From IMG/VR virus record IMGVR_UViG_3300020171_000144, positions 1 through 20,824 of that record: a DNA stretch of 20,824 nt, one strand, 5' to 3'. This DNA comes from a virus. The translations under genes were made by a program, and so were the position numbers. Below, piece by piece: positions 8,329 to 15,046 of the stretch (positions within the stretch are counted from its first letter, which is position 1; every line of letters begins with the position of its first letter). The notes beneath the pieces are model-generated. The model saw only the letters and a program-made list of their open reading frames with translations. It ran no database searches and was not told the origin of the DNA.

Positions 8329-8383
8329 TCACGGGATAGAGACACGTGCTTGAAAAGCTGATTCCTGGTCAGCCTTCCCGTGA
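8329..8383 (+). promoter_or_regulatory. Structured intergenic RNA
   Basis: The outer stem TCACGGGA (8329-8336) pairs perfectly with TCCCGTGA (8376-8383). Inside it GCTGA (8357-8361) pairs with TCAGC (8369-8373) around a 7-nt loop. CCTGG (8365-8369) could alternatively pair with CCAGG at 8391-8395. No T-run follows, so it is not a normal intrinsic terminator. It lies between the solenoid-like gene and the next ribosome-binding site. Confidence 0.45.
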
Positions 8384-8414
8384 ATAACCACCAGGAAATA
8401 TTACAGGAGATATT

Positions 8415-8720
8415 ATGAAGCTTAATGTTTTAGAAAGACTATTGTTACTTAACCTACTTCCGGCAGAAGGGTCGTATACAAACCTTAAACTTATGCGGAA
8501 GGCGAAAGAAAACTTATCTTTCACAGAGGAAGAGAACGGACTACTTGAATTTAAACAGGAAGCAGATCAGGTAAGATGGGCAGACAATGCAGTTGAAGAC
8601 AAAGAAATCGACATAGGCGAAATCGTAACGCAGATAATCGTTAAGAAGCTTAAGAAACTTAACGATGAAGAAAAGCTCAAATCAGAGCATGAAAGTTTAT
8701 ACGAAAAGTTTGTAGGATAA
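8415..8720 (+). CDS. Conserved small phage protein preceding the portal
   Basis: A 101-residue protein, ATG 8415 behind AGGAG. The N-terminus LERLLLLNLLPAEGSYTNLK is characteristic of a small phage protein family of unknown function that I have seen near head genes. The rest is highly charged and helical (EEENGLLEFKQEADQ, IIVKKLKKLNDEEKL), suggesting an extended helical protein. Its 3' end (GAGCATGAAAGTTTA... to the TAA) is repeated at 9013-9049 after the Lar-like gene, indicating that it once sat directly before the portal gene. The role is not known. Confidence 0.7.
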   Translation: MKLNVLERLLLLNLLPAEGSYTNLKLMRKAKENLSFTEEENGLLEFKQEADQVRWADNAVEDKEIDIGEIVTQIIVKKLKKLNDEEKLKSEHESLYEKFVG

Positions 8721-9049
8721 AGATATAGAAGTATTATTGAAAAAAAGAATCCATTAAAACAAGGATTGAAACATAAAGTCAGGGGGAGATGGAGAGTTGA
8801 CATATATATTGAAAGGCAACCTGTAATTATGAACGATTTATTGCCATGTCCATTTTGTGGCTATAAAGAAACTATTATTAGTAAGACATACAAACGAGTT
8901 GATAATAACAAAATGACTTGGGATGGCGGATATTCAGCTAATTGTCCTAAGTGCAAGATTGGAACATCTTCCGGCCCTGACCCAGAATATCAAAGGTCTT
9001 TATGGAATAGCCGAGCATGAAAGTTTAAAAGTTTGCAGGATAAAATATA
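8685..9049 (+). repeat. Diverged direct repeat flanking the Lar-like gene
   Basis: Copy 1 at 8685-8727 is the end of the 101-residue gene plus spacer; copy 2 at 9013-9049 follows the Lar-like gene. Both contain GAGCATGAAAGTTTA, then AAAGTTTGYAGGATAAA and ATATA. Copy 2 lacks TACGA, which breaks the original frame, and has one substitution (T to C) in the core. The unit between the copies is about 285 bp. Confidence 0.8.
8829..9020 (+). CDS. Lar-like zinc-ribbon protein (restriction alleviation family)
   Basis: A 63-residue protein. It begins MNDLLPCPFCGYKE, has a second pair C-P-K-C near residue 43 and ends EYQRSLWNSRA. This is the signature of the Lar restriction-alleviation-like family (LPCPFCG start, a second CxxC, and a terminal W-N-x-R). 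The original Lar protein of the Rac prophage modulates type I restriction; most phage members have unknown targets, so anti-restriction is possible but not shown. ATG 8829 is chosen because the family starts here; the open frame to 8766 has no match. Its last codons fall in the duplicated sequence, a mark of insertion. Confidence 0.75.
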   Translation: MNDLLPCPFCGYKETIISKTYKRVDNNKMTWDGGYSANCPKCKIGTSSGPDPEYQRSLWNSRA

Positions 9050-9115
9050 ATGGCATCATCCAATTTATCATATGAAGAAATAGAGCCAATACAAGGTATA
9101 TATTATGGCTGCTAA
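9050..9115 (+). pseudogene. Relic of a portal-gene start
   Basis: ATG 9050 opens a 21-residue frame, beginning MASSNLSYEEIEPIQG, that stops at TAA 9113-9115. It resembles the N-terminus of the real portal, whose start reads MPVSTKLSYDEIERL: LSY-(E/D)-EIE is shared, with Leu and Ser encoded by different codons (TTA vs CTC, TCA vs AGT). It lies where the portal would begin if the HNH gene were removed. I read it as the leftover start of another portal allele, interrupted by the HNH insertion. It overlaps the HNH start by 11 bases. Confidence 0.6.
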
Positions 9116-9671
9116 AATTAATATGTTAGGCCGAATATTTGGGAAACTAACTATTATTAAAGAAGCTGGTGTTGATAACTGGGAAAAGATAAAATATCTA
9201 TGTCAATGTTCTTGCGGAAATGAGACAATAGTCCTCGGGACTTGCTTGCGGTCTGGGCGTACACAGAGTTGCGGATGCTTTAAAACAGAGATGACTATAA
9301 AAGCGCATAGTGGAAGTAGCCGTTCTATAGAAACTCGAATAAAAATGAGCGAAAAGAACTCAGGCGAGAACAATCCAAACTGGCAAGGGGGGAAGTCTTT
9401 TGAGCAATACTGTGGTATATGGTCAGATAAAGAATTTAAAGAGTACATTCTTAAAAGAGATAACTACAGATGCCAAAACCCAGATTGTTGGGGAAATAGT
9501 AACGGATTGAATCGCCATCATATTAATTATGACAAAAAAGATTGTGCCCCAAATAATATTACAACGCTTTGTATTTCTTGTAACGCACGTGCAAATAAGG
9601 ATCGTGTTTGGCATGAATTATGGTATCGCACAATAATGGAAAAGAAAAACCAAAAAGGGATATGCCTGTGA
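9105..9671 (+). CDS. HNH homing-type endonuclease with NUMOD3 motif
   Basis: A 188-residue protein. The N-terminal DNA-contact domain runs to about residue 58 (GRIFGKLTII, LCQCSCGNE, SCGC), a Cys-rich form common in phage HNH endonucleases. A NUMOD3-like segment SGENNPNWQGG (86-96) follows. The HNH/zinc finger lies at about 118-167: C123-x4-C128, H138-H139, N150/N151 and C156-x2-C159, so all catalytic and structural residues are present. Such enzymes nick or cut DNA at a target site and spread by repair-driven copying. It lies directly in front of the portal, overlaps its start by ten bases, and follows a relic portal start, so the portal gene start was probably its insertion target. Confidence 0.85.
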   Translation: MAAKINMLGRIFGKLTIIKEAGVDNWEKIKYLCQCSCGNETIVLGTCLRSGRTQSCGCFKTEMTIKAHSGSSRSIETRIKMSEKNSGENNPNWQGGKSFEQYCGIWSDKEFKEYILKRDNYRCQNPDCWGNSNGLNRHHINYDKKDCAPNNITTLCISCNARANKDRVWHELWYRTIMEKKNQKGICL

Positions 9672-11767
9672 GTACGAAACTCAGTTATGATGAAATAGAG
9701 CGTTTGGTTAATATTGAGGTTCAGGCTGCTGAAGAGTATGCCAGAACAAGATCCGACAAGAGGGAAAAAAGTTGGGATCGTTATTACGGCAAAAAAATGG
9801 GCAACGAGGTCAAGGGGCGATCTCAATTTATAACGAAAGAGCTTCAAGATACGATAGAATGGATGATGCCGTATTTTATTCGTACGTTTGCTGCTGGAGA
9901 CCCAAAGATCGAGATAGAGATTAAAGGCCAAGAGTCATGGGTAGGCAAGGCGTTGATGGATAGGATTCAGATTGATCTTGGCGAAGGCATGCCGAATCTG
10001 TTTCTTATATTTTATCAGTGGTTTAAGGATGCACTTGTATCAGACACCGCATTTGTGAAGATGTCATGGGATTTAGACCAGGAAGAGGTTTCCACAGAAT
10101 TTGACGAACTTCCACCCGAACTATTACAGCAACTTGTTAGCGACCCAGATGTGACTATCACTGATGGTGGTGAGATGAGCATGGGGTCTGGTGGAATATC
10201 ATTTAAAAATATTAAAGCCAAGATTAAAAAAACCATTAAAGACTCTATCTATTCGGAAAACATTCCTCATTGGGAATTTCTTGTAAGTCCTAAATGCCGT
10301 GGGGTAAACGACGAGTACGGCAAAGGACATAAGACAGAAGTAACGGTTGACTACTTAAAGAGAATTAATCGAGCATTCACCGAAGGCAAGAAACCATATT
10401 TTAAAAATCTTGACAAGTTAGAATCAGGCCAGAGCAAATCAGAAACAGATATAAATAACAGTGAAAAAACAAGCTACATGTCTGATGCTGATCAGATTAA
10501 TATTGATGACAGCACAGAGAAGGGCGCTAAGTCTCCAGTAACATTTATAGAATGGTACACACGGATTGATGTTGACGATAATGGATATCTTGAGAACATA
10601 GTTTGTTATATGGGTAACGGTCATCTATTAAGATGGGAAGAGGACAAAGATGGTTTTATTCCATTCGCTGCGTTATCTCCTATTATTGATTGCTATAAAT
10701 TCTTTGGTATATCATATTCAGATCTTTTGATTGAGATTCAAAACCTCAAGACCATGCTCTTTCGTAGAATTCTGGATAACTTTGATTTCCAGAACTCAGG
10801 CCGATGGCTAAAAGATCCGAATAGCGCAATCGACACTCATGCTCTTTTAAATAACATTCCAGGCTGTGTAATAACCGGCAAAATAGATGGATTAAAAGAC
10901 ATATCCCCTCAACCATTCAATCCGGTAAGCCTTTCAATCCTTGAGTACGTTGATACGATCAAAGAAAATCGTACCGGTATAACTAAATACAATCAGGGGC
11001 AGGACAGCGATTCGCTCAATAAAACGGCCAGAGGAATTATAACAATTCAGAACGCAGCAATGCAACGTCTTGAATTGATTGGAAGAATTTTCGCAGAGCT
11101 TGGCCTTAAAGATTATTATCGTAAAGTAGCAATGCTTTATCAGAAGCATATGAGGCAACCTTTTCAAGCGAAGGTATTAGGACAAGATAGAGAAATCACT
11201 TCTGACATGCTTCAGGGTAGAGTAATCACAAGGGTAAATATGGGCGTGGCTGCTTCGGTAGGCGCTGAGGAAGCACAAAAGATCGAACACATGCTTGGGG
11301 TTCTGTTTAAGCTCAACGAATATTTTCCTGGTCTTTTAACACCTGAAAAAATACACAACCTTTCAAAGCGATACATAACGTCGCTTGGGTTTAAAGACGC
11401 AGACGATTTTATCGAAGATGCTCAAAGTTACTTACAAAAAGCACAGCAACAGCAAAAAGAACAGTCCGAAATGCAGCAGATGATGATGGAACTTCAAAAG
11501 AAATTCAAAGAGATGGAGCTTCAGATCAAAGCCCAGGACGTACAGGTTAAATCTCAGAAGGTTCAGCAGGATGGTCAGATTGCAACCGCAAAACTAAAAC
11601 AGGAAGGCGAGATTGCTACAGCGGAAATACAAAGCGAACTTGCTATAGCCCGGGCTGATGTTGCTCAGAAAGAAAGAGATAGCAGGTTAGACCATAAGCT
11701 TGGATTGCTTGAACTATTAGCTGATAAGCAAAAGCCTGAAACAAAAAAGACAGAGGAAAAGAAGTGA
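9662..11767 (+). CDS. Portal protein
   Basis: A 701-residue dodecameric portal candidate. The start MPVSTKLSYDEIERL is chosen because of the relic copy of the same start at 9050; an upstream ATG at 9620 lies inside the HNH gene. Typical portal features are the N-terminal helix with RSDKREKSWDRYYG, then KGRSQFITKELQDTIEWMMP, a central wing/stem region, and a C-terminal Gln-rich coiled coil from about residue 589 (LQKAQQQQKEQSEMQQ to the Lys/Glu-rich end), reminiscent of the barrel of long podovirus portals. It forms the DNA entry vertex, docks terminase and joins the tail adaptor. Length and place before scaffold and capsid genes support the call. Confidence 0.85.
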   Translation: MPVSTKLSYDEIERLVNIEVQAAEEYARTRSDKREKSWDRYYGKKMGNEVKGRSQFITKELQDTIEWMMPYFIRTFAAGDPKIEIEIKGQESWVGKALMDRIQIDLGEGMPNLFLIFYQWFKDALVSDTAFVKMSWDLDQEEVSTEFDELPPELLQQLVSDPDVTITDGGEMSMGSGGISFKNIKAKIKKTIKDSIYSENIPHWEFLVSPKCRGVNDEYGKGHKTEVTVDYLKRINRAFTEGKKPYFKNLDKLESGQSKSETDINNSEKTSYMSDADQINIDDSTEKGAKSPVTFIEWYTRIDVDDNGYLENIVCYMGNGHLLRWEEDKDGFIPFAALSPIIDCYKFFGISYSDLLIEIQNLKTMLFRRILDNFDFQNSGRWLKDPNSAIDTHALLNNIPGCVITGKIDGLKDISPQPFNPVSLSILEYVDTIKENRTGITKYNQGQDSDSLNKTARGIITIQNAAMQRLELIGRIFAELGLKDYYRKVAMLYQKHMRQPFQAKVLGQDREITSDMLQGRVITRVNMGVAASVGAEEAQKIEHMLGVLFKLNEYFPGLLTPEKIHNLSKRYITSLGFKDADDFIEDAQSYLQKAQQQQKEQSEMQQMMMELQKKFKEMELQIKAQDVQVKSQKVQQDGQIATAKLKQEGEIATAEIQSELAIARADVAQKERDSRLDHKLGLLELLADKQKPETKKTEEKK

Positions 11768-12060
11768 TGGGAATAGCAGATGACCAGGAATCAATCGAAA
11801 AGACTCGCAAGCTACATTTAGCGAGTGAAGCACGAAGGATATTATCCGAACCACTGATAGATAATTTCCTAAGAGATCAGGAAGCTATGTGCTTTGAAGC
11901 ATTTAAGCAATTACCACTTGATGCTAATCTTGATGAGTTCAAAACTATTTATCACGAAGTCAGGGCAGTCAATAAGTTTAGGGTTAAATTGCAGACATAT
12001 ATAAATGAAGCTGATATAATGACGTACCAGGACAATAGGAATGTTGCAGAGGAAATATGA
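11767..12060 (+). CDS. Small conserved protein following the portal
   Basis: A 97-residue protein; ATG 11767 overlaps the portal TGA by one base (TGATG). The sequence HLASEARRILSEPLIDNFLR then a long helix and ending YINEADIMTYQDNRNVAEEI is an all-helical pattern seen in small genes beside phage portals, possibly a portal or head-assembly helper. No catalytic or metal motif is present. Its stop overlaps the next gene by ATGA. The role is inferred from position only. Confidence 0.65.
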   Translation: MGIADDQESIEKTRKLHLASEARRILSEPLIDNFLRDQEAMCFEAFKQLPLDANLDEFKTIYHEVRAVNKFRVKLQTYINEADIMTYQDNRNVAEEI

Positions 12061-12359
12061 GCTACAAATATTATGTTGCCGGTAAAGAAATCACGCAGTC
12101 TGAAAAGGATAAACTCATCGGAGGAACCGGTGAAAAGGCTTTGTATTCTCCAAAGGATCAGCCAGGAATACCTTTTGCGGTATCAGGAGAACACTTTAAA
12201 ATTATGGGTAATAAGCTTGATATAAATGATCAGTTGTTAAGAGAATGTCTTAATGCTATTAAGCTTGATATTGACAAGACGTTTATAATCCAAAGATTTG
12301 TTGATAGTGAAGACAAGCTGGTAATTCCACAGAAAGGTGCAGTGTATGGATGCTGGTGA
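12057..12359 (+). CDS. Unrecognised 100-residue protein (module boundary gene)
   Basis: It starts at ATG 12057, overlapping the previous TGA. It contains MSYKYYVAGKEITQSEKDKL and a Gly/Pro-rich middle (GTGEKALYSPKDQPGIPFAV) and ends VIPQKGAVYGCW. Its last 33 bases (12327-12359) recur at 12639-12671 with two changes, both synonymous in this frame, so a homologous 3' end lies downstream as a relic. The repeat also carries the ribosome-binding site and start of the following gene, which is encoded in another frame. Function unknown. Confidence 0.6.
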   Translation: MSYKYYVAGKEITQSEKDKLIGGTGEKALYSPKDQPGIPFAVSGEHFKIMGNKLDINDQLLRECLNAIKLDIDKTFIIQRFVDSEDKLVIPQKGAVYGCW

Positions 12360-12671
12360 GAATAGAAGATTGGTAGTTGTTCCGATTCCAGATTGTTTCA
12401 TAGGAGATATGTGTAAAACTACAGGAGAAGATTGTGTTTTTGTTAATATTGAGGGCATTCCAAAAGATGCGCAATTAATTAATATATATTATGATAATAT
12501 AAATAGACAAGTTATGGTGATTTTTGAGCATGAGTCATTTGATCCTATTTCCCAAGGTTGGCCTATACCAAGTAAACTTATTAGGCATACTAAATATTAT
12601 GTCTAAGAAAGAGATAGACACAGAACAACTTTATAATCCCACAAAAAGGGGCAGTGTATGGATGCTGGTGA
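12327..12671 (+). repeat. Direct repeat carrying a gene end plus the next gene's start
   Basis: Copies at 12327-12359 and 12639-12671 match at 31 of 33 positions. Each copy has a Shine-Dalgarno-like AAAGG or AAGGGG, then GCAGTGTATGGATGCTGGTG, giving the start of a gene beginning MDAGE. The two downstream genes (12346-12606 and 12658-12882) are unrelated after those residues. The interval is 312 bp. Confidence 0.85.
12346..12606 (+). CDS. Cassette gene 1, begins MDAGE (unrecognised, 86 aa)
   Basis: ATG 12346 sits eight bases after AAAGG. It encodes 86 residues: MDAGENRRLVVVPIPDCFIG, a middle with two more Cys, and a beta-rich C-terminus ending SKLIRHTKYYV. Its ribosome-binding site, start and first five codons lie in a repeat that is shared with cassette gene 2, while the rest is unrelated to it. 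It overlaps the end of the 100-residue gene by 14 bases. The protein looks compact and soluble; the function is unknown. It appears to be an inserted or alternative module. Confidence 0.55.
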   Translation: MDAGENRRLVVVPIPDCFIGDMCKTTGEDCVFVNIEGIPKDAQLINIYYDNINRQVMVIFEHESFDPISQGWPIPSKLIRHTKYYV

Positions 12672-12679
12672 ATCTGTAA
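12599..12679 (+). pseudogene. Truncated copy of the KEIDTEQL gene start joined to a repeat
   Basis: The frame from ATG 12599 begins MSKKEIDTEQL, closely matching MKEIDTEQL of the small gene at 12888. After that the sequence runs into the repeat at 12639 and the reading frame ends at 12679. The shared part ends just before the repeat, so this is a broken copy of the 12888 gene at a recombination joint. Confidence 0.55.
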
Positions 12680-12882
12680 TAAGTCAATATGATGTAGATG
12701 ACCTCCCCTTATTAGGGGATGCCCTAATGCTTATTCTCCTTGCGATTTTAAAAGATAATTATGAAAAGGACGATATAGCACAATTAAAAATAGTCTTAGA
12801 GAAGAGACTGGCCATGCAAGGCGCTGATAGAAAACACATAAAAAAAGTAATTGATATGATAATAGACCCTATTTTGGAATAA
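12658..12882 (+). CDS. Cassette gene 2, begins MDAGE (unrecognised helical, 74 aa)
   Basis: ATG 12658 behind AAGGGG encodes 74 residues. It shares MDAGE and its upstream control sequence with cassette gene 1 but then diverges: ESVISQYDVDDLPLLG, a hydrophobic helix (DALMLILLAILKDNY) and an amphipathic C-terminus (KHIKKVIDMIIDPILE). The hydrophobic helix of about 14 residues is more likely buried than membrane-spanning. The same entry sequence before two unrelated genes points to module exchange. Function unknown. Confidence 0.6.
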   Translation: MDAGESVISQYDVDDLPLLGDALMLILLAILKDNYEKDDIAQLKIVLEKRLAMQGADRKHIKKVIDMIIDPILE

Positions 12883-12887
12883 AAAAT

Positions 12888-12989
12888 ATGAAAGAAATAG
12901 ACACAGAGCAGCTCATTAAAGCTCTCATAAAAGGGTTAGGGTTCTTAGTAGGACAACTCAAGAAGGTATTAAAGGGTGAAAAGATATGA
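12888..12989 (+). CDS. 33-residue peptide
   Basis: ATG 12888 to TGA 12987-12989 encodes MKEIDTEQLIKALIKGLGFL followed by a Lys-rich amphipathic tail. The TGA overlaps the ATG of the next gene (ATGA), which supports translation. A second, truncated copy of its start occurs at 12599, which also argues for it being a real gene. It might associate with the membrane through its amphipathic helix; no family is recognised. Confidence 0.5.
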   Translation: MKEIDTEQLIKALIKGLGFLVGQLKKVLKGEKI

Positions 12990-13273
12990 CATATCACGAT
13001 GATAATTTTGAACCAAAAATATTATTTCGAAACAATAGAATATCGGGAAAAGAATTGAAGGAGATTCTTGAAAAAAAAGATATTCATATTTGTAATGGTG
13101 GAGAACCCGCGATAATGCTTTCTGGTTACATAAATTGGAATCACCTACAATCAGATCACATAGTGGTTAAAGCCTTAGAAAATCTTGGTAAAAAGATAGA
13201 GGACGTTGTGATAAAGTCAGTTAATGGAGGGGAATGGACATGTATATACACATTAAAGGGTGAGCCAATATGA
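12986..13273 (+). CDS. Unrecognised 95-residue protein
   Basis: ATG 12986 overlaps the previous TGA. The protein contains MTYHDDNFEPKILFRNNRIS, a Lys-rich helix (KELKEILEKKDIHI), HICNGGEPAIMLSGYINW and a beta-rich end (GGEWTCIYTLKGEPI). Two separate Cys do not form a pair motif. It is the last gene before a long untranslated stretch with a strong terminator, so it closes the small-gene unit that follows the portal. Function unknown. Confidence 0.6.
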   Translation: MTYHDDNFEPKILFRNNRISGKELKEILEKKDIHICNGGEPAIMLSGYINWNHLQSDHIVVKALENLGKKIEDVVIKSVNGGEWTCIYTLKGEPI

Positions 13274-13294
13274 TATAACATAAAAATACATACA

Positions 13295-13326
13295 ATCTGA
13301 TATCTCTCTTAGGAAGCCTATCAGAT
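13295..13326 (+). promoter_or_regulatory. Hairpin upstream of the terminator
   Basis: ATCTGATA (13295-13302) pairs perfectly with TATCAGAT (13319-13326), eight pairs around a 16-nt loop containing GGAAGCC. The segment GGAAGCCT recurs at 13333-13340, and AAGCCTC begins the terminator stem. The region may form alternative pairings before the terminator. Confidence 0.45.
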
Positions 13327-13350
13327 AAAGCTGGAAGCCTTTAGAAAATC

Positions 13351-13395
13351 AAAGCCTCTTCAGAATCAACACGATTCTGGGAGGCTTTTTTATTT
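13351..13395 (+). terminator. Strong intrinsic terminator
   Basis: AAAGCCTC then CAGAATC, loop AACAC, then GATTCTG and GAGGCTTT with a small internal bulge, followed by TTTTATTTT. Two stacked stems of eight and seven pairs with a T-rich tail. It should end transcription through the accessory genes before the virion genes from 13485 on. Confidence 0.9.
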
Positions 13396-13405
13396 TGGCG
13401 ATAAG

Positions 13406-13436
13406 CCGACAAGTAAATCGTAGCGACACTGGCTAC
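13406..13436 (+). promoter_or_regulatory. CCGACAA box plus GACA-loop hairpin (copy 2)
   Basis: CCGACAA (13406-13412), seven bases, then stem GTAGC (13420-13424), loop GACACTG and stem GCTAC (13432-13436). It matches the element at 14182-14212 in 24 of 31 positions without gaps. It lies just after the strong terminator and 48 bases before the next start, exactly where a new promoter would be needed. Confidence 0.65.
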
Positions 13437-13484
13437 ATGCGAAACAAACAAAAAACTTAAACTAATAAGAAAGGAATAGAAAAA

Positions 13485-14162
13485 ATGAATGAGCAAATAA
13501 CATTACTTGCACAGGGCACAGGCGCAGCGATTTATTTTCGCTTAGGCTGGTGTCCTTCTAAGGTAGTAATTCAAGGTTCAGCCGAGGAAGATTCGGTTGT
13601 ATGGACGATAGACATGGCTGCTGGTTATGGAGTCGAATCTATAGATACCGATGGTATTTCAACACTAACTACCGCCACCGGCATCACTCTTGTTCAGTTT
13701 ACAGGCGATTCAGATACACTTCCGACCGCAGCTCCAAGTTCAGTTGAGCCTGGCCGGTATTGGGAAGCAAACGGTATTGGAATTGGTGCGTCAGCGGCAG
13801 CAAACGTAAATGGCAATCCATTTACAGTACAGGCGTTTAGAATGAATGTGCCTATTGTACGTGCAGTACATGACGGAACAAACCCAAGCCATGCCTATTT
13901 TGAGGATAGTTCAATTGACTTCCTTGAGGCTGGTGTTTCGCCAAACGGTAAGTTTATTCTTGTAAACGAAACCAATGACAATATGGCTTATGTCGGAGCA
14001 ATTACGAAACCGGCAGGCAAGGATAAATATTGCCGTATTTACACTTTTGCGGATGAACTTTTGGTAACAGCAACAGCGGCAGCGGCTTTCGCTACGTCTG
14101 ATGTGGTTTTTATCATCCCAAGGCAATATATCCAATATCCATTAATTACAGCAGCAACCTAA
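13485..14162 (+). CDS. Virion protein, probable capsid decoration protein
   Basis: A 225-residue protein starting MNEQITLLAQGTGAAIYFRL behind AAAGGAATAG. It is beta-rich, with many Gly/Ala/Thr/Val residues and no catalytic motif. Its place directly before the scaffold and capsid genes, behind a terminator and a virion-type structured element, and its composition (ANGIGIGASAAANVNGNPF) suggest a surface or accessory head protein. Decoration is inferred from place; homologues would be needed for proof. No membrane segment or signal peptide is seen. Confidence 0.55.
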   Translation: MNEQITLLAQGTGAAIYFRLGWCPSKVVIQGSAEEDSVVWTIDMAAGYGVESIDTDGISTLTTATGITLVQFTGDSDTLPTAAPSSVEPGRYWEANGIGIGASAAANVNGNPFTVQAFRMNVPIVRAVHDGTNPSHAYFEDSSIDFLEAGVSPNGKFILVNETNDNMAYVGAITKPAGKDKYCRIYTFADELLVTATAAAAFATSDVVFIIPRQYIQYPLITAAT

Positions 14163-14181
14163 CAATATGGGGTTATGAATC

Positions 14182-14212
14182 CCGACAAATTTAAAGTAGC
14201 GACAATAGCTAC
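14182..14212 (+). promoter_or_regulatory. CCGACAA box plus GACA-loop hairpin (copy 3)
   Basis: CCGACAA (14182-14188), seven bases, stem GTAGC (14196-14200), loop GACAATA (14201-14207), stem GCTAC (14208-14212), then directly AAGGAGGACAAC and the scaffold ATG at 14225. The hairpin touches the ribosome-binding site, so it could control scaffold translation. Confidence 0.65.
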
Positions 14213-14224
14213 AAGGAGGACAAC

Positions 14225-15046
14225 ATGTCTGAAGAAGAAAAAGAAGTAACTGAGGAAGTCGAAGAAGAAATCGAAGAGCAGGAAGAAGAAACGGAAGAAT
14301 CTGAAGAGTCTGGCGACAAAGAAAAACCAAAGGAAGAAAAACCAGCCAGGTTTGAACTTGCTCAATCGGAAGTCCCTGTTGCTCAAGATGATACTGTAGA
14401 GATCATCCATAATGGAAGACCTTATCGTCTCCCTAAAGATGAGATTATAAAACTTGCACAAAAGGGTTTTGATTATGATGTAAAAGTAGGCCCGCACGGT
14501 AAATTGGTTCAGATGGTGGACGCTGATCCAGAGTTGGCTAAAACAATAGATAATTACTGGAAAAAGAAAGTCGCAGGAGAACCTACCGGAGAGGATTTTA
14601 AAATTAAGCCTATCACAGAGTATGAAGACGAAACCGAATGGTTGCAAGACAATCTTAGGCAGGCGCTCAAAACAGTAAAGCCCCAAGCAATACCGGCACC
14701 TCAGCCAGCAGGAAGGGCAATCGAGAACGCTTTAAAGATGAGAGACCCCGAAACCGCTCATTTGATTATTCCGCAGTTAGGCAAGTATGTTTCTCAACTA
14801 AGCGTATCTGATTATCAAAAAGTTGACTCAGACATGGGTGCACTCTGTCAGTTTTATGATTTTGTAAAAACTCAAGAAATGGCAAAGAGAAGAACTGCTT
14901 CACCGACAGAAACCAAACACCCGGGATTTAGGGTTAAGTCTGGCGGTGGTGATGCTCCAAAGGAGAATAGTACTCCTGTATGGAAACTATCAAAAGAAGA
15001 ATTTCAAAAACAGTTAGATAAAGTAAAAGGATTATCATTCGGATAA
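14225..15046 (+). CDS. Head scaffolding protein
   Basis: A 273-residue protein behind a very strong ribosome-binding site (AAGGAGG). The N-terminal 30 residues are almost entirely Glu/Thr/Val (MSEEEKEVTEEVEEEIEEQ); then a folded part includes IIHNGRPYRLPKDEIIKLAQ; the C-terminus is basic and helical (WKLSKEEFQKQLDKVKGLSFG). An acidic start, an extended middle and a Lys-rich C-terminal capsid-contact helix are typical of podovirus scaffolds, which guide capsid assembly and leave or are degraded afterwards. It lies directly before the major capsid gene. Confidence comes from composition and place; no protease gene is visible nearby. Confidence 0.8.
   Translation: MSEEEKEVTEEVEEEIEEQEEETEESEESGDKEKPKEEKPARFELAQSEVPVAQDDTVEIIHNGRPYRLPKDEIIKLAQKGFDYDVKVGPHGKLVQMVDADPELAKTIDNYWKKKVAGEPTGEDFKIKPITEYEDETEWLQDNLRQALKTVKPQAIPAPQPAGRAIENALKMRDPETAHLIIPQLGKYVSQLSVSDYQKVDSDMGALCQFYDFVKTQEMAKRRTASPTETKHPGFRVKSGGGDAPKENSTPVWKLSKEEFQKQLDKVKGLSFG

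Follow-up and report, generated by a model that had tools for sequence, protein, structure and literature searches.

How do two dissimilar small genes come to stand in tandem in a phage genome, each behind the same short entry sequence? The question is raised by a metagenomic virus record of a tailed phage in IMG/VR, the whole 20.8 kb of which (20,824 nucleotides) is referred to here as the window. In mosaic phage evolution, small accessory genes (morons) between conserved genes are exchanged among related phages with junctions at gene boundaries, and random recombination followed by selection is the proposed mechanism. A sequence-only reading of the window had suggested that two alternative modules from different phages were joined in tandem, and that their shared end acts as an expression cassette for exchangeable genes. 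Our analyses argue for the first proposal and against the second. The tandem probably consists of two modules from two related phages, each comprising a 100-residue gene (p100), a cargo gene (X) and a 33-residue gene beginning KEIDTEQL (KEID), joined in an exchangeable cargo slot where swaps leave duplicated scars.

A variable interval between conserved genes

All features of the window described below lie on the plus strand. The portal gene matches PHROG 1216 by profile, and the portal and putative major capsid genes have relatives in approximately 30 other IMG/VR contigs. The 2.4 kb around the tandem gave zero DNA matches in the annotated phage collection, and DNA and protein searches of the collection with p100, with the two cargo genes (A and B) and with a further accessory gene, p95, returned no useful match. 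In most relatives the gene order is portal, p98, a variable stretch, and then p225, scaffold and capsid genes. The left neighbour of the interval is p98 (11764–12060), a conserved reading frame whose homologues follow the portal in most relatives; the right neighbour is KEID (12888–12989), intact in the window and 88–97% identical in four relatives (L003, L004, L006 and L027). The interval thus has the conserved flanks and variable interior of a mosaic slot. It holds nothing in L003 and L027, where KEID lies directly 3' of p98 with a 4-nt overlap; small unrelated reading frames in L004; an HNH-like gene in L023; p100 and a Lar-like gene in L006 (IMGVR 3300020171_000036); and p100 with A through B in the window. 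KEID is absent at that place in L002 and L005.

Scans of IMG/VR with p100 (12057–12359) retrieved L006 only, with an 84% identical protein, and scans with A and B retrieved nothing; the remaining relatives have no p100-X module. Hence, with only one other phage carrying p100, exchange behind this gene is seen in two genomes only. A match to p100 in a bacterial genome (L063) was rejected as a shadow frame opposite a histidine kinase, and comparison of p100 with p95 as paralogues gave no signal.

A scan for sigma-70-type promoters detected no promoter-like excess in 11700–14300, and the cargo cluster did not display the promoter and terminator of its own that characterise a classical moron; a clear terminator-like hairpin stands at 13359, after the whole cluster. 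As part of the overall explanation, the p98–KEID interval, in the head operon's tail and just ahead of this hairpin, is likely to be a cargo site of the phage group.

Head genes of the relatives carry interruptions of another kind. The portal gene of L006 (6007–9147) has an in-frame intein-like insertion after LNK, with the motifs WLGDG and LLRGLMDSDG and ending ATHN before TARG; its first residue appears to be Arg, not Cys or Ser. Capsid genes are interrupted, as by introns or inteins, in L003 (5503–7199), L026, L027 and L030 (1512–3435), either after residue 88 (by approximately 700 bp) or near residue 119 (by approximately 900 bp).

Two genes behind a duplicated gene end

The two-copy entry sequence was recovered by a direct-repeat scan of pairs 100–800 bp apart, controlled with eight simulated windows that kept the trinucleotide content. 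It forms a 38-bp repeat (12322–12359 and 12634–12671), identical at 35 of 38 positions, with a score of 30.5, far above the best score of 15 in the simulated windows. The first copy, which carries a ribosome-binding-site-like AAAGG and ATGGATGCTGGTGA, comprises the last 11 codons and the stop codon of p100. The second, a remnant of another p100 with a residual match to that gene, keeps the codons for IPQKGAVYGCW and the stop with three third-position changes, all three synonymous (P = 0.0066 under unconstrained change). The start of the first cargo gene, MDAGE, and the p100 stop overlap by 14 nt, and the cargo genes (A, B and the Lar-like gene of L006) diverge only past the p100 stop codon, TGGTGA.

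Gene A occupies 12346–12606 and gene B, of 74 amino acids, 12658–12882; open frames of these lengths have chance probabilities of about 0.001 each. A matches phrog_20473 over most of the protein (E = 9e-6; residues 7–76 of A against profile positions 3–67 of 94), and a search with the family's own record gives E = 6e-8; a relative occurs in the halophage PhiCh1. By profile similarity, A is a member of this dispersed phage family. The match begins past MDAGE, and A may have its family-proper start at a TTG (12370) that lies 10 nt beyond GGTGA. In the cargo of L006, homology likewise begins at an inner ATG and not at MDVGE, so that in two of the three cargo cases (tentatively for A) the family-proper start would lie downstream of MDAGE, which speaks against a shared end that serves as the expression cassette of its cargo.

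No similarity between A and B was detected. The structural model of A is beta-rich, of low confidence and too poor for a fold search; that of B is all-helical, with three helices and a mean pLDDT of 74, and its fold search gave no significant matches. B had no relatives in any search, including the IMG/VR scan. The claim that two unrelated genes stand behind the same entry sequence is upheld by these results, and the predicted folds, beta for A and alpha for B, do not suggest distant homology, though the model of A is poor.

Two alleles of the KEIDTEQL gene

The KEIDTEQL gene is present twice, as had been read from the sequence: intact, and as a truncated start (12599–12633) cut at its junction with the second p100 end, where the two share a few bases only. 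The duplicated starts (12604–12630 and 12887–12913) agree at 23 of 27 positions, and the four changes within their eight shared codons are all synonymous (P = 0.0006). Since the differences in both the entry and the KEID repeats are exclusively synonymous, each copy most likely accumulated its changes in a gene that still worked, prior to the present arrangement, in agreement with the claim that both derive from functional coding sequence.

The two KEID copies are also different alleles. The truncated copy, of L006/L003 type, matches the L006 allele at 18 of 18 bases, which is the whole extent of the allele argument; the intact copy differs at approximately 79% of synonymous sites, and its differences are partly common to L004. 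L006 itself carries one p100-X-KEID module, in which X differs from both A and B and is a third gene, encoding a Lar-like zinc-ribbon protein of 63–70 residues (Pfam PF14354, E = 4e-6). This single genome supplies both the single-module relative and the further gene behind the same entry that the sequence-only reading had recommended looking for, and the two-module order is not shared by the relatives compared. Together with the KEID alleles, the single module of L006 supports the joining in tandem of alternative modules from different phages. A donor with a single p100-A-KEID or p100-B-KEID module was not found among the genomes searched.

The left boundary of the cargo is always at the p100 stop, and the right boundary varies: A overlaps KEID by 8 nt, B ends 5 nt before it, and the Lar-like gene of L006 has a 19-nt overlap with KEID, whose start codon it provides. 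This three-way difference on the right led us to reject simple site-specific recombination.

The same final order would result if a p100-X-KEID block had been duplicated in tandem in one phage, one X then being replaced and the middle KEID and p100 mostly deleted, and the two entry copies are indeed nearer to each other (three differences) than either is to L006. We consider this origin improbable, because the KEID copies are different alleles, one of them identical to that of L006 over the bases compared, because the synonymous divergence would require both complete genes to have been long under selection in the same phage, and because L006 has one module only. Joining of modules from two related phages is the reading we retain.

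Boundary duplications at other accessory genes

Each accessory gene examined shows a duplicated boundary of its neighbour, in a recurrent pattern: the upstream gene is followed by the cargo, and the cargo by a second copy of either the upstream gene's end or the downstream gene's start. Direct repeats that pass the threshold coincide with accessory-gene boundaries, save for repeats within tail-fibre proteins and one leader-hairpin pair. Immediately beyond the tandem, p95 (12986–13273; no match in the relatives) is appended to KEID: the KEID tail, LKGEKI and stop (12968–12996), recurs as the end of p95, LKGEPI and stop (13252–13280), forming a third boundary repeat, and p95 upstream of this copy is unrelated to KEID. 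An HNH-like gene (9105–9671), with weak NUMOD3 and GH-E matches, lies between two copies of the portal start (9071–9086 and 9686–9701). With scores of 14.0 (p95) and 13.5 (HNH), neither of these two scars, taken singly, exceeds the simulated windows (maximum 15), and the case for them is their position.

The third site lies between a 101-aa gene and the portal, a place that is empty in L006. The 101-aa gene has its end duplicated here (8685–8721 and 9013–9044), and the two copies flank a solitary CRISPR repeat (8736–8772) and, 56 bp beyond it, a Lar-like zinc-ribbon gene (8829–9020). The latter belongs to the Lar family by profile (phrog_599, E = 1.8e-9; Pfam PF14354, E = 3e-6, although its 27.9 bits fall just under the cut-off of 28.6), and is predicted to be anti-restriction-like, acting in restriction alleviation. 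It is 86% identical in DNA to the slot cargo of L006, from 4 nt before the ATG to the stop, and the sites differ between the two phages. Its dS of 0.79 is below that of p100, portal and KEID (saturated) and fairly close to the 0.91 of the 101-aa gene.

The CRISPR repeat is complete (37 nt; Rfam CRISPR-DR7, 50.8 bits against a gathering score of 37). Arrays in several uncultured bacteria contain a 26-nt core of it without mismatch, and the full repeat agrees at 36 of 37 positions with the type I-B repeat of a 28-repeat array in a Desulfobacteraceae MAG, adjoining cas5b, cas3 and cas4. The window has one copy and no array, as in solitary repeat units, and this copy is a candidate RNA anti-CRISPR (Racr). 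Solitary repeats that have been tested act as RNA anti-CRISPRs and tend to sit near anti-CRISPR genes (PMC10651486), and by this analogy the inserted repeat and Lar-like gene look like a counter-defence pair. The likeness is that of one viral CRISPR repeat, matching real arrays, beside a probable anti-defence gene; here, however, the element is a putative one and the matching array is type I-B. The match suggests the Desulfobacterota as host group; portal searches of five genomes carrying the repeat, and of 389 genomes from the class of the Desulfobacteraceae MAG, found none. Single exact copies of the repeat core are also present on three Bathyarchaeota MAG contigs (L052, L056 and L059), the first of which has a second, degenerate copy nearby.

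An assembly chimera of two strains co-occurring in the metagenome, whose variants the two modules would then be, is conceivable for a metagenomic record. We judge it very unlikely, given that the KEID/p100 junction offers no long shared k-mer that could have joined them and that scars of the same type occur at three other places.

The entry sequence and other recurrent elements

The notion of the entry sequence as a translation-start cassette, mobile or selected, that itself recruits genes could appeal to the AAAGG, ATG and GGTGA of that sequence and to the three different genes behind it. It is the least probable of the alternatives and can be set aside, because only three copies of the sequence are known, every one the end of p100 (the one exact match outside the window, among 2.9 million IMG/VR viral contigs, being again a p100 end), because the sequence has no special RNA fold (z-score about 0) and because conservation stops at the p100 stop. 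Seen only as the end of p100, the entry sequence does not travel alone. The shared left end is, to judge from its codons, kept as p100 coding sequence and not as a roaming expression signal, and the expression-cassette proposal is accordingly not sustained.

Comparison with known elements reveals partial likenesses. Start-associated sequences in cluster K mycobacteriophages are 13-bp elements found at many genes (PMC3203893); they resemble the entry repeat in being short repeated sequences that could bind ribosomes and that stand immediately before unrelated genes. The entry repeat, in contrast, belongs to a single locus, where it forms the coding end of one gene, and its two copies in the window are both coding sequence in the frame of p100. 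The PeSL cassettes of T4-type phages, promoter plus stem-loop elements according to the citing account (Arbiol 2010, cited in PMC4503421), are, as far as that account goes, likewise short repeats tied to the shuffling of small genes, but neither a promoter nor a stem-loop was found in the entry sequence.

A covarying hairpin, GTAGCGACANNGGCTAC, resembles start-associated sequences more than the entry repeat does. It has the form GTAGC-GACANNG-GCTAC with an invariant GACA in the loop, and recurs in the window (13420–13436 and 14196–14212) and in L002–L009, L023, L025, L029 and L030, where it precedes the start codons of head genes, p225 and scaffold among them, by some 15–60 nt and often stands just upstream of the Shine-Dalgarno sequence. 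Across the alignment 96.5% of cells are paired, three of the five pairs show both-sided change, and the covariation score was reached by none of 500 shuffles. The model finds approximately 30 copies at E<0.05, including those used to build it, all on the gene strand; its sites have no match in Rfam. It could be an element of translation or a site for an RNA-binding protein. A further RNA, Rfam int-alpA, scores above its gathering threshold in the window (8329–8396) and in L005 (8929–8996), at different genomic places in these two related phages.

Discussion

The observations can be assembled into a sequence of events. One lineage would carry p100 in the interval, followed by one exchangeable small gene, so far A, B or a Lar-like gene, which overlaps or abuts the p100 stop codon and may be translated by coupling to p100. 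Unequal, short-homology recombination between two related phages would have joined two such modules, with a 5' KEID fragment of one fused to a 3' p100 fragment of the other, to give p100-A-keid'::p100'-B-KEID. Events of the same type would have added p95, the Lar-like gene with its solitary CRISPR repeat, and the HNH-like gene. Where the crossover falls slightly upstream of the equivalent point, a gene end is duplicated and no conserved gene is lost; where it falls downstream, a gene would be broken and the product lost, such that selection leaves only duplications. The process would be one of quasi-random recombination between related phages, filtered to keep the flanking genes intact.

The locus resembles morons in that small accessory genes between conserved genes are exchanged. 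It differs in presenting both versions side by side, with duplicated coding ends at the junctions, and in that no promoter of the cargo's own was recognised, the cargo being attached instead to the upstream gene's end. Mosaicism is as a rule deduced afterwards, from clean boundaries, whereas several gene acquisitions in one 5-kb stretch here keep their joints, as short duplicated gene ends and different alleles. With these joints visible, the model of random joining and selection becomes directly readable.

Because a Lar-like gene uses the same slot, which is the sole basis for the idea, a counter-defence role for A and B is a plausible extension by analogy. A broader proposal, that the end of the head operon and the gap preceding the portal both serve as counter-defence sites filled by boundary-duplicating recombination, with A, B and p95 as new anti-defence proteins, is rather doubtful at present. 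Nonetheless, since one swap partner is anti-restriction-like and the second site carries a solitary CRISPR repeat, scars of this kind could help to find unknown counter-defence genes.
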